A DNA stretch of 58,754 nt from Halorussus salilacus. GTDB taxonomy: Archaea; Halobacteriota; Halobacteria; Halobacteriales; Haladaptataceae. A program made the position numbers and the translations under genes. The notes under the pieces were generated by a model that did not search any database, was not told the DNA's origin, and worked only from the letters and a program-made list of their open reading frames with translations. Location: assembly GCF_024138125.1 (NCBI RefSeq), contig NZ_CP099996.1:1-58754 (forward strand). The letters are read 5' to 3'. How positions within the stretch are numbered: the stretch's first letter is position 1; the number at the start of each line of letters is the position of its first letter. This document shows, piece by piece, positions 4,761-20,409 of the stretch.

Positions 4761-4850
4761 CCCCCACCCCACGTTTCCGACGTATCGGAGGACAGGTGAA
4801 AGATACTCGGTGTGGACTGGTAAACCCACACCCCCCACGTTTCCGTCGTT
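4761..4850 (-). repeat. ORB-like origin repeats, left arm (two copies)
   Basis: CCCCACGTTTCCGACGT at 4767-4783 and CCCCCCACGTTTCCGTCG at 4831-4848 share the core CCCCACGTTTCCG. This resembles haloarchaeal origin recognition boxes bound by Orc1/Cdc6. Both point the same way, opposite to the copies right of the AT-rich stretch. A degenerate reverse copy (ACAACGGAAGGGGGG) lies near 4859-4874. Confidence 0.8.
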
Positions 4851-4892
4851 TCTTCGTAACAACGGAAGGGGGGACACGGACAGCCCTCGAAT

Positions 4893-5010
4893 CAGTTTAT
4901 TGTATATTTAGATCTCTATGTGATAAATCATGCTCAGGGACTAAAGTATATAGATTAAAGTAGGTAGGGTGAGAATAGACCACTAAGTTTACTTCGTTTC
5001 TAGATGGAAC
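4893..5010. other. AT-rich stretch, candidate duplex-unwinding element
   Basis: Runs such as TTTATTGTATATTTAGATC and AAGTATATAGATTAAAGTAG make this the most AT-rich part of the region. It lies between inversely oriented ORB copies (left 4767 and 4831, right 5155), which is the standard layout of an archaeal origin. Confidence 0.65.
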
Positions 5011-5154
5011 GACACTTGCTTCGTTTCATCGGCTGAAATAAAGGCTTTCGGGATCGTACATCCACCTACGGTTTTCTGGCGTTAGGTATCTTTCGTAAGG
5101 AATTTTCCACCCTGAACCATAGTTTCGACTGGCGGCCCCCCTCTTTCAGGAGTT

Positions 5155-5331
5155 ACGACGGAAACGTGGGGTGTGTGGGTGGGAAACTCCGTCAACACTA
5201 TCCCGCCGCCGTCATTCAAATTCCCGACTTACGTCGGAAACCCGGTGCTATTGTTGGGAAAATAATTATCGAACTTCACGCGTCGATGGTCGCAATATCG
5301 GCAAAAGAACGTCGGAAGCATGGGGTGGTTC
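5155..5331 (+). repeat. ORB-like origin repeats, right arm
   Basis: ACGACGGAAACGTGGGGTG (5155-5173) is the reverse complement of the left-arm core. Two weaker copies follow: ACGTCGGAAACCCGGTG (5231-5247) and AACGTCGGAAGCATGGGG (5309-5325). All lie between the AT-rich stretch and the orc promoter, so binding there could both start replication and repress orc. Confidence 0.75.
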
Positions 5332-5377: not shown

Positions 5378-6610
5378 ATGACGTTCGATCCTTCATCCAA
5401 CTCTGTTGATGACCCGCTCTTTGACTCCGGGCATCACATTTTCGCAAACAAAGACCTCCTAAAAATCGGTCACGTTCCAGAAGCCGACCGGATCGTCGGT
5501 CGAGACGACGAAATTGCAAAATTGGCGAAACGACTCAACGGCGCCGTCCACGGCTATTCTCCAGAAAACGTCATGATCTATGGCAAAACTGGGACGGGAA
5601 AGTCGCTCGTCTCAAGACACGTCTCCCAACGCGCCCAAAACGCAGCCGATGACGGTATCGACATCGGGACGGCATACCTCGACTGTGCAGAAGACAATAC
5701 AGAAACCCAAGCCATCTCGTCGCTTGCCGCTAAACTGAACGACGAGTCCGTCACTGGCACCACCGTCCCACACACTGGCCTCAGCACGTCAAAATACTAT
5801 AAACTCCTCTGGGAAACCCTTGATGCACAGTTTGACTCTGTCATTATCATCCTCGACGAGATCGACCTGATGAACGACGATAGCGTTCTAATGAAACTCT
5901 CCCGGGCCGAGGAAGCCGGGAAAATCGACTGTAGCGTCGGCATCATCGCGATTAGCAACAAAATCCAGTACGTCGATAATCTGAACGAACGAGTGAAAAG
6001 TAGCTTTCAGCATAAGGAATTATTCTTCAAGCCATATGATGCGAACCAACTCCGTGAAATAATGCTCAACCGGGACGACGCCTTTCACGACGGCGTTCTG
6101 TCTGATGACGTGATTCCACTGTCTGCCGCCTTTGCAGCCCAAGAACATGGCGATGCTCGAAAGGCGATCGACATCCTTCGCCACGCCGGTGAGGTTGCCT
6201 ACGAAGACGGTGCCGAACAGGTGACAGAACAGCACGTTCGGCAAGCCCAGCAACACGCTGAAAAAGACCGATTCCGAGAACTCGTGAGTGGAGCGCCTAC
6301 ACAGGCAAAGGCGGCATTGCTTGCATTGACCGAACTCAGCGTCAATTCCAATGACGAAGCATTCCTCACGAGCCGTGTGTATGACCAATACGAACGAATT
6401 TGCAACCACCTCGACATGGACATCCTCTCCGTTCGCCGTTTTCGAGACATCTTGAAGGAGCAGGCGTTCCTTGGTGTCGTCGAAATCGAGAAAATCAACA
6501 AAGGAAGTGCAGGCGGCATTCACCTTCAGAACCGACTTATCGAAGATCCGCAAGTTGTTCGCGAGACAATCCTAGAGGACAGCCGACTTCAAAACTGGAC
6601 CCGCGAGTGA
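5378..6610 (+). CDS. orc1: Orc1/Cdc6 replication initiator
   Basis: Origin-binding AAA+ ATPase of 410 residues, the usual length. Walker A is GKTGTGKS (residues 69-76) and Walker B is IIILDEID (156-163). A sensor-like AISNKIQYVDNLNERVKSSF stretch follows near 190-210. The C-terminal 110 residues (from about AKAALLALTELSVNSNDEAF) form the winged helix that contacts ORB DNA. ORB repeats flank the gene on both sides, so it is the initiator of this origin. Codon use is less GC-biased than in the catabolic genes (many AAA, ATT, GAA codons), which suggests a plasmid-type history. The gene looks intact. Confidence 0.93.
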   Translation: MTFDPSSNSVDDPLFDSGHHIFANKDLLKIGHVPEADRIVGRDDEIAKLAKRLNGAVHGYSPENVMIYGKTGTGKSLVSRHVSQRAQNAADDGIDIGTAYLDCAEDNTETQAISSLAAKLNDESVTGTTVPHTGLSTSKYYKLLWETLDAQFDSVIIILDEIDLMNDDSVLMKLSRAEEAGKIDCSVGIIAISNKIQYVDNLNERVKSSFQHKELFFKPYDANQLREIMLNRDDAFHDGVLSDDVIPLSAAFAAQEHGDARKAIDILRHAGEVAYEDGAEQVTEQHVRQAQQHAEKDRFRELVSGAPTQAKAALLALTELSVNSNDEAFLTSRVYDQYERICNHLDMDILSVRRFRDILKEQAFLGVVEIEKINKGSAGGIHLQNRLIEDPQVVRETILEDSRLQNWTRE

Positions 6611-6740: not shown

Positions 6741-6967
6741 AACGACGGAAATCTGGGGTGGGGTGTACGGAATCGACGGATACGACGGAAACGGAGGGGA
6801 CCGAATGCTACGTCGGAAACGTGGGGTTCGATAGAGACGACGGAAACGTGGGGGGTAGAAGCAACGTCGGAAACGTTGGAAACGTAGGGGGCCGAACACT
6901 ACGTCGGAAACGTGGGGCTCGACGGAGACGACAGAGACAATGGAAACGACGGAAACGTAGGGGGTAC
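6741..6967 (+). repeat. ORB-like repeat cluster behind orc1 (about seven copies)
   Basis: Copies of ACGWCGGAAACGTGGGG in one orientation lie at about 6742 (variant ACGGAAATCTGGGG), 6782 (ACGGAAACGGAGGGG), 6810, 6837, 6864 (with an extra GTTGGAAAC), 6901 and 6946. Spacing is irregular. With the copies before orc1 they bracket the initiator gene, giving a bipartite origin. Reading frames across this stretch are products of the repeats. The first part (about 6675-6710, CCCCGGGGCACTCGG) resembles the mobile-element relic at 18796-18830. Confidence 0.8.
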
Positions 6968-7222: not shown

Positions 7223-7951
7223 ATGCTTGAGAACAAAGTCGCAATTGTCACCGGCGGCTCGACGGGAATCGGCAAAGCAACTGCTACCAAGTATCTCGAG
7301 TATGGTGCCGAAGTAGTGATTGCAAACCGCTCGGCTGATGCGGGTCAAGAAGTTGCTGAGGAACTCGACTGTGACTTCACCCAGTGTGACGTCGCAGAGT
7401 ACGAACAGCTCGAAGCGCTCGTCGAAGCCACCGTCGAGAAGTACGGACAACTGGACGTGATGGTAAACAACGCGGGAATCGGTAGAGTCGGGGCAGTCGA
7501 GGATATGTCACTTGATGACTGGCACGACGTAATGCGGATTAATTTAAACGGCGTCATGCACGGAACGCGAGCGGCAATGCCCTATCTGAAGGAATCCGAA
7601 GGAAGAATCATCAACGTCGCGTCGATCTATGGTCTCGTCGCTGGTCCGGGAGCGACTGCCTATTCGACGGCCAAGGGCGGTATCGTCAACTTCACACGGT
7701 CGGTCGCGGTCGATTACGCCAAACAGAACGTTCGAGTCAATAGCATCTGTCCGGGATTCGTCGAGACGCCAATGACCGAGCCGAACTTTGGGGACGAAGA
7801 GTTCTATGAGTACGTTCACGGACAGACCCCGATGGGGCGGGTCGCCCAACCAGATGAGATCGCCGGTCTCGCGATGTTTCTCGCCTCTGATGAGGCTTCG
7901 TACATTACGGGAGCGAATATTCCCGTCGATGGTGGGTGGACGGCACAGTGA
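7223..7951 (+). CDS. Short-chain dehydrogenase/reductase (classical SDR)
   Basis: NAD(P)-dependent oxidoreductase of 242 residues starting at the ATG at 7223, which places MLENKVAIVTGGSTGIG at the N-terminus. The nucleotide motif TGGSTGIG, the NNAGIG structural motif, the catalytic Ser in NVASIYG and the YSTAKGG catalytic Tyr/Lys pair are all present. The PGFVETPM and VDGG C-terminal signatures are typical of FabG-like members. The substrate cannot be told from sequence. It sits alone between the origin repeats and the relic orc, and is followed 15 bases later by a strong hairpin. Confidence 0.85.
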   Translation: MLENKVAIVTGGSTGIGKATATKYLEYGAEVVIANRSADAGQEVAEELDCDFTQCDVAEYEQLEALVEATVEKYGQLDVMVNNAGIGRVGAVEDMSLDDWHDVMRINLNGVMHGTRAAMPYLKESEGRIINVASIYGLVAGPGATAYSTAKGGIVNFTRSVAVDYAKQNVRVNSICPGFVETPMTEPNFGDEEFYEYVHGQTPMGRVAQPDEIAGLAMFLASDEASYITGANIPVDGGWTAQ

Positions 7952-7965
7952 ATTTACTTAGCTCT

Positions 7966-8005
7966 TTGACATTCTCCTCCGCCTGAAGGCGGAGGAAGAT
8001 GTCAA
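7966..8005. other. Two-part hairpin, probable IS200/IS605-type end relic
   Basis: TCCTCCGCC (7975-7983) pairs with GGCGGAGGA (7988-7996) around a TGAA loop, and the outer TTGACAT (7966-7972) pairs with ATGTCAA (7999-8005). Haloarchaeal IS200/IS605 and solo tnpB elements often end in a GACAT...CCGCCCTGAAGGGCGG hairpin. It starts 15 bases after a stop codon, so it may also act as a terminator. Confidence 0.5.
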
Positions 8006-8098
8006 TTTCAAACGCCTCTTCGTCGCGGTCGACCGTCCGTCTCAGGTTGTCGGTGACGAGCCAACCGACGTCTCCATCCAACAGGGTCGGTCCCATTC

Positions 8099-8284
8099 GG
8101 AGCCGAGGCCGAAGGCGTCACGGTCGGCCACGCGTACGTCAACTGTGCACAGGATACGCCCCAGTTCACGGCTGTCCAGACCACCGCTACCGAAGTGAAC
8201 ACGCAAGCGACCGGGGTTTCCATCCCGGAAAAAGGCATCTCGATGTCCAATTACTACAAACGACTCTGGAAGAGTCTTCTTTGA
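8099..8284 (+). pseudogene. Relic of a second orc1/cdc6 gene
   Basis: This frame has no start codon and ends at TGA 8282-8284. It reads GVTVGHAYVNCAQDTPQF and then GISMSNYYKRLWKSLL. It aligns with residues about 95-150 of the intact Orc1 in this window (GIDIGTAYLDCAEDN and GLSTSKYYKLLWETL). Only the stretch between Walker A and Walker B survives. Residue differences are many, so it is not a recent copy of the neighbouring gene but a fragment of a diverged paralogue, perhaps the initiator of a former replicon linked to the parA unit downstream. Confidence 0.75.
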
Positions 8285-8433
8285 ACGTGACCGTACTACG
8301 CGGTCGGGTGTCGCCGTATTTGCGGTAGCCGGGCGGATTCGTCCCGGGGTCTTTCTGTCGCAGGTCGAACCACGATTGGAAACGGACGGTCTAACTACGT
8401 ATTCTATCTGAACGGCATCGCTAGCTATCGTAT

Positions 8434-8641
8434 CGATTTGGCCTACCTATCTGGTCCACCTATCTGGTCCACCTATCTGGTCCACCTATTTGGCCCATCT
8501 ATCTGGCCTAACTACATAGTCTGATTATATAGGTTGTCTATCTAGCCTAACTGCATAGCCTAACTATATGGCCTAACTAAGTAGGCTATCTGATATGGCT
8601 ACTTAGGCCGCCTAACTATCCAGCATAAACCGTTTGTCTGA
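8434..8641. repeat. 13-bp iteron array upstream of parA (about 16 units)
   Basis: Starting at 8434 the sequence breaks into consecutive 13-base units with consensus CTATCTGGCCTAA. The units at 8447, 8460 and 8473 are identical (CTATCTGGTCCAC). The array continues through 8499 (CTATCTGGCCTAA), 8538 (CTATCTAGCCTAA), 8551 (CTGCATAGCCTAA) and 8564 (CTATATGGCCTAA), decaying to ACCGTTTGTCTGA at 8629. The phase holds without a gap to the parA TATA box. This is the form of a plasmid iteron or a centromere for a ParA system. Confidence 0.85.
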
Positions 8642-8645
8642 CTAG

Positions 8646-8654
8646 GTTTTATAA
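8646..8654 (+). promoter_or_regulatory. TATA box of parA
   Basis: GTTTTATAA occupies the last 13-base register of the iteron array and is about 28 bases before the ATG at 8678. Protein bound to the iterons would therefore also cover the promoter. Confidence 0.6.
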
Positions 8655-8677
8655 CGGTGCCTTCTGATTAGCCTCGT

Positions 8678-9508
8678 ATGCTAACGTACACGACGTACAG
8701 CGAGGCTGGCGGTGTCGGGAAGACCACGCTATCGGCCAATCTCGCGCGCGCTCACAGCGACCACGGCCACCGGGTCCTCGTCGTCGACCTCGATCCGCAG
8801 GACGGCTGTCTCTCGTATCTCCTCGGTGTCGACGAAAACCGTAGCGACGAGGACGCCGACACCATCGTCCACCACATGATCGACCGCGGGGACGATTTCG
8901 ATGGCCTGATTCGCACGACCGAGGGGATCGACGTCGTGCCGAGCCACAACATGCTCGAACGCCTCGGAGATCTCTTGGAGAAGGCCGCCTCGATTGCTGA
9001 ACAGACCGGCGAGTCCTTCTCGAAGTACGGCCGTCTCCGACACGTCCTCGCGGCGAACGATATCCCCGAGAAGTACGACGTCCTGATCGTCGACCCGCCC
9101 GCGACGAGCGGTCCGCACCTCTACAACGCCATCGACGCGACGCGGAGTCTGGTCGTCCCGGTCGAACCGAGCGGGAAAGGCGGCGAGTCCATCACCGGAC
9201 TGGAATCCGTCGTCGCGGGCATCGAATCGAACCTCGACATCGACGTCGGCGTGCTGGCGACCGTCGTGAACCGCTTCGAGGGAACGAACGACCAGGAGGC
9301 GGTCCTCGACGAGGTCGCCGACATGCCCTATTCCAATCCCGTCACGCTCCGGAAGCGGGCGAGTCTCTTCGAAGGCTGTTGGACGAAGCAGTGTAGCGCG
9401 TTCGAATACGTCGACGAGCATCGCGACCGAGAGCGTGACCACGAACGAGAGACGCTCGACAAGCTTGACGACCTCGCGGCGTATCTGGAGGAGCGTGGTG
9501 GGCTATGA
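8678..9508 (+). CDS. parA: ParA/Soj-type partition ATPase
   Basis: P-loop ATPase of 276 residues. The Walker A region reads SEAGGVGKTT (about residues 8-17), followed by VLVVDLDPQ (Walker A') and VLIVDPPAT (Walker B). ParA family proteins normally carry KGGxGKT; here the first signature Lys is Ala. The rest of the fold is present, and the C-terminal 40 residues are highly charged. ParA ATPases segregate DNA with a centromere-binding partner. The iterons directly upstream and the overlapping downstream gene complete a partition cassette. The annotation as partition, rather than another MinD/ParA role, rests on this context. Confidence 0.85.
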   Translation: MLTYTTYSEAGGVGKTTLSANLARAHSDHGHRVLVVDLDPQDGCLSYLLGVDENRSDEDADTIVHHMIDRGDDFDGLIRTTEGIDVVPSHNMLERLGDLLEKAASIAEQTGESFSKYGRLRHVLAANDIPEKYDVLIVDPPATSGPHLYNAIDATRSLVVPVEPSGKGGESITGLESVVAGIESNLDIDVGVLATVVNRFEGTNDQEAVLDEVADMPYSNPVTLRKRASLFEGCWTKQCSAFEYVDEHRDRERDHERETLDKLDDLAAYLEERGGL

Positions 9509-9954
9509 AGGACGGAACCGGGAGCGACCCGTTCGCCGACGACTCGCTCACCGAGGACGGAACGGCCGACGATGACGATGCCACCACGAGCCAGCAGACG
9601 GACGACGGAACTACCTCCGGAGATACGGAGACGGACGACGAAACTACCACCGGAGATACGGAGACGGACGACGGCTCCGAACCCGAAGAACAGGACGGCG
9701 ATACCAAGGTCGACGCTGGCGAACTCCCGTGGGCAGTCCGGCGCAACAGCGTGAAGAGCGACCGCGAGATGGTCCAGTTCTACCTTCGAGAGTTCGTCCA
9801 GGAACGCGAATCCGAGTTCCAGCGCGCGGTCGAGAACGAAACCGGCTACGACACGTACCTGACGGACGTCCGTGAGGCGGCCTATCTGGTCGCGATGAAC
9901 CACCCCGAGGAGGTCGCTGGCCTACTCGACGAGTGGGGTTGTGAATACCTCTGA
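9505..9954 (+). CDS. Putative ParA partner, acidic tail plus small C-terminal domain
   Basis: A 149-residue protein whose start overlaps the parA stop by 4 bases (ATGA). Residues 1-75 are disordered and extremely acidic, with a 33-bp DNA duplication encoding two TTxGDTETDD units (9609-9641 and 9642-9674). Residues 76-149 form a compact region (LPWAVRRNSVKSDREMVQFY, then TDVREAAYLVAMNHPEEVAG) that I do not recognise. By position it should be the centromere-binding or adaptor protein of the ParA system. No classic ParB or ribbon-helix-helix motif is evident, so that role is inferred only from the operon. Confidence 0.65.
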   Translation: MKDGTGSDPFADDSLTEDGTADDDDATTSQQTDDGTTSGDTETDDETTTGDTETDDGSEPEEQDGDTKVDAGELPWAVRRNSVKSDREMVQFYLREFVQERESEFQRAVENETGYDTYLTDVREAAYLVAMNHPEEVAGLLDEWGCEYL

Positions 9955-19233: not shown

Positions 19234-20409
19234 ATGGGAGCTCACAAGCAGTACGACGGTTACGAGTCGTACGACTATCTGACGGCTGGCGAAGACTACC
19301 GAGAGTTCGCGCTTCCCGAGCGCCATTCGGGCTTCGAGCCGTACGAGATACCGCTCACCGACGACGAAGAGGAACGCGCACAGCAGGTCGCGGCGGAGAA
19401 CTACGTAGTGTCGTTCCACGAACACCCGTTCTACTTCCCGGACGACCTCGATGAAGACCTCTGGGACTACATCCGCGAGGGTCGGGCGGTCACCGCTTAC
19501 GAGGCTCTGGCGGACACCGCGCTCGACGGCGTCTTCGACATGCACTTCGACGGACTCGCGAGCATTCACTCCCAGCACGGCTGGAAGTGGGACGACATCG
19601 TCCACGACGTGAGCATGCGCGCCTGCGATATCGCTCACTCGGAGTATGCCATCCGCTGTGACGGAGCCGACGACATCCGACGGGCCTACGACGAGGGGAA
19701 GCTCGCTATCGTGCCTGCACTCGAATCCGCGGCGATGATCGAGAACGAACTCGACCGCATCGAACAGCTCTACGGAATGGGCGTCCGGTCGATGGGAATC
19801 ACCTACACCGCCTCGAATGCCCTCGGAACGGGTGAGGGCGGTATCCACGAACGCGACGGCGGCCTGACCGCGTTCGGTGCGGCGGCCGTCAAGCGAATGA
19901 ACAAGGTCGGGATGGCGATAAGCACCAGTCACTCGAGTCCCCAGACCACCCTGGACGTCTGCGAGGTCAGCGAGAAGCCGGTCTTCGACACCCACGCTCT
20001 CGCGAGGGGCGCAGGCGTGGGCAAACGCGGCGCGTCCGACGAAGAACTCGAGGCCATCGCCGACACCGGCGGCGTCATCGGTATCCTCTCGTCGACGCAC
20101 CTGCCCGACATCGAGACGTACATGGACCACTTCGAGTACATCGTCGACTTGGTCGGTATCGACCACGTCGCGTTCGGTCCGGACGTCCTCTACGGCGACC
20201 ACACGGGCCTACTCGAAGTGCTCGCCGACTTCCACGGCATCGAACTCCCCGAAACCACGCTCCAGAGCCCCTACGTGAAGGGGCTGGAGAACCCGACCGA
20301 AGCGTGGAACAACATCATCCGTTGGCTCGTCAAGAACGAGTACACCGACGAGGAGATCGAGAAGGTGCTCGGCGAGAACGTGCTCCGCGCGCTCGAAGAA
20401 GCGTGGTGA
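19234..20409 (+). CDS. M19-family (renal-type) dipeptidase
   Basis: Membrane-dipeptidase-like enzyme of 391 residues, started at the ATG at 19234 because upstream codons lie in non-conserved leader sequence. Family landmarks are FDMHFDGLAS (first metal His-x-Asp, with H followed by F-D), ALESAAMIENELDRI (bridging Glu), YTASNALGTGEG, ISTSHSSPQT (His) and VAFGPDVLYGDH. M19 enzymes hydrolyse dipeptides, including those with D- or dehydro-residues at the C-side. No signal peptide is present, so it probably acts in the cytoplasm, unlike the mammalian enzyme. It is one of five peptidases in the cluster. Confidence 0.85.
   Translation: MGAHKQYDGYESYDYLTAGEDYREFALPERHSGFEPYEIPLTDDEEERAQQVAAENYVVSFHEHPFYFPDDLDEDLWDYIREGRAVTAYEALADTALDGVFDMHFDGLASIHSQHGWKWDDIVHDVSMRACDIAHSEYAIRCDGADDIRRAYDEGKLAIVPALESAAMIENELDRIEQLYGMGVRSMGITYTASNALGTGEGGIHERDGGLTAFGAAAVKRMNKVGMAISTSHSSPQTTLDVCEVSEKPVFDTHALARGAGVGKRGASDEELEAIADTGGVIGILSSTHLPDIETYMDHFEYIVDLVGIDHVAFGPDVLYGDHTGLLEVLADFHGIELPETTLQSPYVKGLENPTEAWNNIIRWLVKNEYTDEEIEKVLGENVLRALEEAW

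Follow-up and report, generated by a model that had tools for sequence, protein, structure and literature searches.

A conserved 13-bp repeat array upstream of parA as a probable centromere and operator of haloarchaeal plasmids

Type Ib partition systems often use one identical site as both centromere and operator. In the delta-omega system of pSM19035 a small ParA is combined with a small partner; TP228 has a ribbon-helix-helix (RHH) partner with a mobile N-terminal tail, and its centromere lies upstream. Activation of the pSM19035 ParA needs four or more contiguous repeats (PMC9499535). Among archaeal systems, SegAB of the Sulfolobales and some Euryarchaeota has an overlapping gene for the RHH protein SegB and palindromic sites upstream of segA (PMC5120986, PMC12284271), and the DNA-binding protein of the pNOB8 AspA-ParB-ParA system forms a helix as it spreads along DNA (PMC5120986).

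The window analysed in the present study is the entire contig C4 of Halorussus salilacus (58,754 bases), in a genome of four contigs, and the features concerned, all on the forward strand, are the following.

8387..8646, + strand: phase-locked 13-bp array of approximately 20 units, unit T(A/G)GCCTAACTAT(A/C); putative centromere (parS) that would double as operator of parA
8434..8641, + strand: the sixteen units of the original prediction, within the larger array
8647..8654, + strand: TATA box TTTTATAA, centred at approximately -27 from the parA ATG
8678..9508, + strand: parA, 276 aa, ParA/MinD-type ATPase, no N-terminal HTH extension; P-loop SEAGGVGKTT, in which Ala replaces the signature lysine
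9505..9954, + strand: partner gene overlapping parA, encoding a putative centromere-binding protein of 149 aa; no match among Pfam, NCBIfam and PHROGs families
9505..9540, + strand: conserved N-terminal motif of the partner, MKxG(S/T/A)GxDPFAD; putative ParA-contacting peptide
9712..9951, + strand: C-terminal core of the partner, with a basic arm, the extended strand EMVQFYLR and three helices in ribbon-helix-helix-like order; AlphaFold mean pLDDT 92.6

This arrangement resembles pSM19035 ParA/ParB (delta-omega, type Ib RHH) in its small ParA and partner and in a proposed centromere of contiguous short repeats, but the parS unit of pSM19035 is a 7-bp heptad, whereas the haloarchaeal unit has 13 bp in a single orientation and a sequence that changes between clades while the period stays constant; in addition, the haloarchaeal partner belongs to a different family and the haloarchaeal ParA is without the signature lysine. 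With SegAB the locus shares an archaeal ParA homologue, an overlapping small gene and sites upstream of the ATPase gene. However, the SegB sites, 13 bp long and built around the core AGA(g/c)TCT, are scattered over chromosomes and form no phase-locked array, whereas the haloarchaeal unit, T(A/G)GCCTAACTAT(A/C) in the window, is unlike this motif, clade-specific and confined to one tandem array, with no counterpart of the dispersed palindromes. By description, TP228 ParF-ParG-parH is similar in gene order, in its RHH partner with a mobile N-terminal tail and in its upstream centromere, but differs in protein family and unit. The likeness to pNOB8 is that of an archaeal plasmid partition system, although pNOB8 has three genes, an AspA of helix-turn-helix type and a single 23-bp centromeric site.

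Leave-one-out scoring of each in-phase slot gave a sharp array onset at 8387 and 20 in-phase units up to 8646, 19 of which scored positive (the exception starts at 8621), and two weak in-phase units (8647 and 8660) continue past the array across the TATA box toward the start codon. The original prediction had placed sixteen in-phase 13-bp units here, which proved to be real and in register at that place, but their number was too low. It had rightly noted that three units are identical (8447, 8460 and 8473, all CTATCTGGTCCAC) and that the phase is kept up to the TATA box, since one unbroken phase spans approximately 8387-8646; its consensus, CTATCTGGCCTAA, is found exactly at 8499 only, the best-scoring register giving the unit listed above. 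Lag-13 identity over 8387-8646 was 0.599, compared with 0.26 +/- 0.03 (maximum 0.381) in 20,000 Markov shuffles, and the highest identity at any lag from 8 to 39 in 3,000 shuffles was 0.395. TRF likewise reported a period of 13 at the array. The suggestion that successive binding sites would rotate around the helix is arithmetically right: each 13-bp unit adds approximately +86 degrees and four units make approximately five helical turns, which returns nearly the same face every four units.

This array was the sole one of its kind with period 13 in 842 kb of its own 3.6 Mb genome (C2, C3, C4 and fourteen chromosome tiles). The one further period-13 signal, on C2 at approximately 318098-318260 (19598-19760 of the piece L087), was rejected, being a GC-rich 26-bp tandem repeat in an intergenic region flanked by UspA-type genes and without relation to parA, and the ParA/MinD paralogues on C1, C2 and C3 had no array upstream. 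An Rfam search over 7900-8800 returned sub-threshold chance matches only. Upstream of the array lies a strong imperfect hairpin at 7966-8005 (TTGACATTCTCCTCCGCC-TGAA-GGCGGAGGAAGATGTCAA), and degraded reading frames fill the interval between it and the array; the hairpin and these frames have the look of a terminus and remnant of a small insertion element.

ParA relatives (E <= 1e-30) were present in 238 of 392 genomes of the order, and the nearest named relatives of the window's parA are from Halorussus. As the first fifty parA loci inspected had the same 13-bp lag, 80 further loci were fetched, before inspection, as a test set. In these the best upstream period was 13 at 71 loci and 26 at three, and mean autocorrelation between -330 and -40 was 0.374, 0.357, 0.336, 0.319 and 0.309 at lags of 13, 26, 39, 52 and 65 respectively, against a background of approximately 0.25. 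There were no peaks at neighbouring lags; side peaks 4 bp off the main ones arise from internal CTA..CTA structure, and no 13-bp periodicity was found in the test loci either farther upstream or within parA. In a non-redundant set of 177 loci, which includes 80 added named genomes, 142 exceeded the highest value of the controls (other periods or shuffles), and 59 of 73 later-fetched loci, a set that partly overlaps the earlier ones, also carry the array. Phase-locked arrays beside parA, for which the original prediction had proposed a search, lie upstream of most relatives.

Arrays are present on Halobacterium salinarum pNRC200, Haloferax mediterranei pHME132 and Natronomonas pharaonis PL131, and on three IMG/VR contigs. 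Across the family the 13-bp period is fixed and the unit sequence differs clade by clade; the feature of importance is the conserved period rather than the originally proposed consensus. Approximately one-fifth of the loci had no array above the strict threshold, and the haloviral parA genes of phiH, ChaoS9 and phiCh1 (28-32% identity) had none upstream, so the array is not universal among haloarchaeal ParAs. A single fixed phase of the array relative to the start codon was considered and rejected, as the phase varies between clades. At one locus (L223), parA is followed by an unrelated protein instead of the usual partner and the 13-bp array is missing (score -5.6), possibly a natural replacement of partner and array together.

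A small gene lies directly 3' of parA, as in type Ib systems, with an overlap of 4 nt at 114 of 137 loci and of 1 nt at 12. Its product gave no significant match to Pfam, NCBIfam, PHROGs or PDB sequences, and in a 295-genome sample of the phylum all matches to the partner profile fell within the window's own order. In the protein, the N-terminal motif is joined by an acidic, variable linker to a core that has invariant arginines, an Asp, a Glu and a Gly. The linker varies widely in length among relatives, and in the window it contains a 33-bp tandem repeat (9596-9674, 2.4 copies). AlphaFold models of the core (pLDDT 92.6 and 94.7) consist of an extended segment followed by helices at 27-44, 50-62/63 and 65-74, and the hydrophobic/variable alternation in MVQFYLR, RVPLFLQ and RLTFFVH is the pattern of an RHH ribbon. 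Foldseek searches gave weak matches, none at E 0.001, among which ParD, NikA and RHH-like TCP domains were prominent, RHH-like fold being the term that papers use for the latter. Profile-profile comparison with haloarchaeal RHH_1 proteins was negative, scoring below the best permuted control. We consider that the partner probably has an RHH fold.

Clades that differ in the predicted ribbon residues of the partner differ also in the unit, for example: TGTTCATTA in the RVPLFL clades, CTTAGATAAG in the TVQLHLQ clade, ACTGnnCAGT in the VHQLFV clade, TTGnTnCAA in the RLTFFVH clade, TAGCTA in the QRPIFL clade and TAGnCTAnCTA in the MVQFYLR clade, which contains the window's plasmid and its Natrinema/Natrialba relatives. 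Dyad symmetry, expected of a site for a dimer, is significant in half of the units, and no dyad symmetry was seen in units of the RVPLFL clades. Over 134 loci, unit distance correlated with partner distance (r 0.52, or 0.41 with ParA distance removed). At equal ParA divergence (0.30-0.45), unit distance was 0.38 where the strand was identical and 0.64 where it had at least three differences. The effect of the strand alone, after correction for ParA and for the remainder of the partner, was small (partial r 0.108), so that shared ancestry accounts for much of the covariation; none of 500 permutations, which leave phylogeny in, reached this effect. In a sample of multi-parA genomes, none of 45 co-resident parA pairs shared the predicted DNA-facing strand, against an expectation of 3.6 and with as low a count in 76 of 5000 permutations, which fits the prediction of plasmid incompatibility via a common centromere.

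The ParA ATPase domain match begins at residues 7-9 with no N-terminal HTH, and iterated centromere-like repeats lie at the promoter upstream of parA, both as in type Ib systems. Position 10 of ParA, where the type Ib signature (KGGxGKT) has lysine, is Ala in 127 of 134 sequences, Ser in seven and Lys in none. In our best reading the array functions in the manner of a type Ib site, and we hold back from assigning it to type Ib since the signature lysine is missing and the RHH fold of the partner is unproved. TATA-like motifs start at -27 to -31 in most relatives, and as this spacing of approximately 27-30 bp to the start codon recurs family-wide, the parA transcript is probably leaderless; the operon is probably also repressible by array-bound protein.

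Our preferred reading, to which we give a probability of roughly 0.78, is that the array serves the plasmid both as centromere (parS) and as operator of parA, with partner dimers bound next to one another along it. The original prediction had offered a haloarchaeal centromere or an iteron-controlled origin, and for the centromere the comparison gives good support, with the same phase upstream of most parA relatives, an overlapping partner gene and a unit that tracks the partner. We infer binding, ParA stimulation, repression and segregation as follows. Partner dimers, probably RHH, would read the major groove by a two-stranded ribbon, one dimer per 13-bp unit, and with approximately 86 degrees between neighbours they would follow a winding path about the DNA. 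Their N-terminal tails, disordered and carrying MKxGxGxDPFAD, would reach nucleoid-bound ParA-ATP and trigger its ATPase, with the effect that sister plasmids move apart, and occupancy of the units adjoining the TATA box would repress parA. By analogy with pSM19035 and its requirement for at least four contiguous repeats, run length rather than any single unit should matter here also.

The array adjoins the TATA box and its units weaken across the promoter, as might be expected if it were an operator only, i.e. a long site through which the partner would autoregulate the parA operon, with partition through another site or none. We regard this as improbable: repression needs just one to three operators, whereas arrays commonly reach -160 and beyond, the orthogonality of co-resident systems fits plasmid incompatibility, and operator and centromere are often one site in type Ib systems. 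That the main binder is instead ParA itself or a host factor is very unlikely. ParA is always present, but it lacks the N-terminal HTH typical of type Ia and the correlation of unit distance with ParA distance fell to only 0.14 once the partner was removed, compared with the 0.41 retained by the partner when ParA was removed; a host factor would not follow the plasmid-encoded strand type inside one genome.

Phased direct repeats near a replication gene also recall an iteron-type origin or copy-number control array, and an Orc1 gene does lie at 5378-6610, approximately 1.5-2 kb upstream of the array and parA. However, nine ORB-like GGAAACGnnGGGG repeats flank this Orc1 on both sides (4778, 4844 and 5160 within 4778-5160, and 6787-6951), ORB repeats on both flanks being the normal haloarchaeal origin layout (PMC3528665), and these probably constitute the plasmid's replication origin. 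Orc1 lies within 3 kb at only 15 of 67 array loci, Halorussus vallis has none within 6 kb, and the cognate initiator (Rep) gene expected of an iteron origin does not accompany the array. Given the ORB-like repeats at Orc1 and the proximity of Orc1 to so few arrays, we conclude that the array is very probably not the replication origin, and this half of the original prediction is left with a very slight chance. Least probable of all is functionless, neutral tandem-repeat drift: slippage generates tandem repeats and the units do decay, but period, place and gene order are constant over most of the order while the unit sequence changes completely, the array is unique in the 842 kb scanned, and the conserved period speaks strongly against drift.

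In sum, the array is real and widespread, and it is most likely a centromere-operator by which haloarchaeal plasmids are distributed when the cell divides, undescribed in the searchable literature. We found no description of a haloarchaeal parS there, subscription journals being mostly outside its coverage, so that an earlier account is possible; the statement that no 13-bp iteron of the originally proposed consensus has been described agrees with our literature searches. More tentatively, and with somewhat less than an even chance in our estimation, the system may form its own haloarchaea-wide partition class, defined by a ParA without the signature lysine, a new family of binding protein and a fixed 13-bp period with a clade-rewritten sequence. 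The binding-protein family of such a class lies outside every library searched and may be an RHH family extended by a further helix and a basic arm. If this is true, rewriting the sequence clade by clade under a fixed period would enable many replicons to coexist in one cell. For haloarchaeal plasmids, among them those of the laboratory species Halobacterium salinarum and Haloferax mediterranei, the array also provides a concrete candidate site for which genomes can be scanned, and the natural pairs of strand and unit could be used to work out a recognition code and the incompatibility groups of the plasmids.
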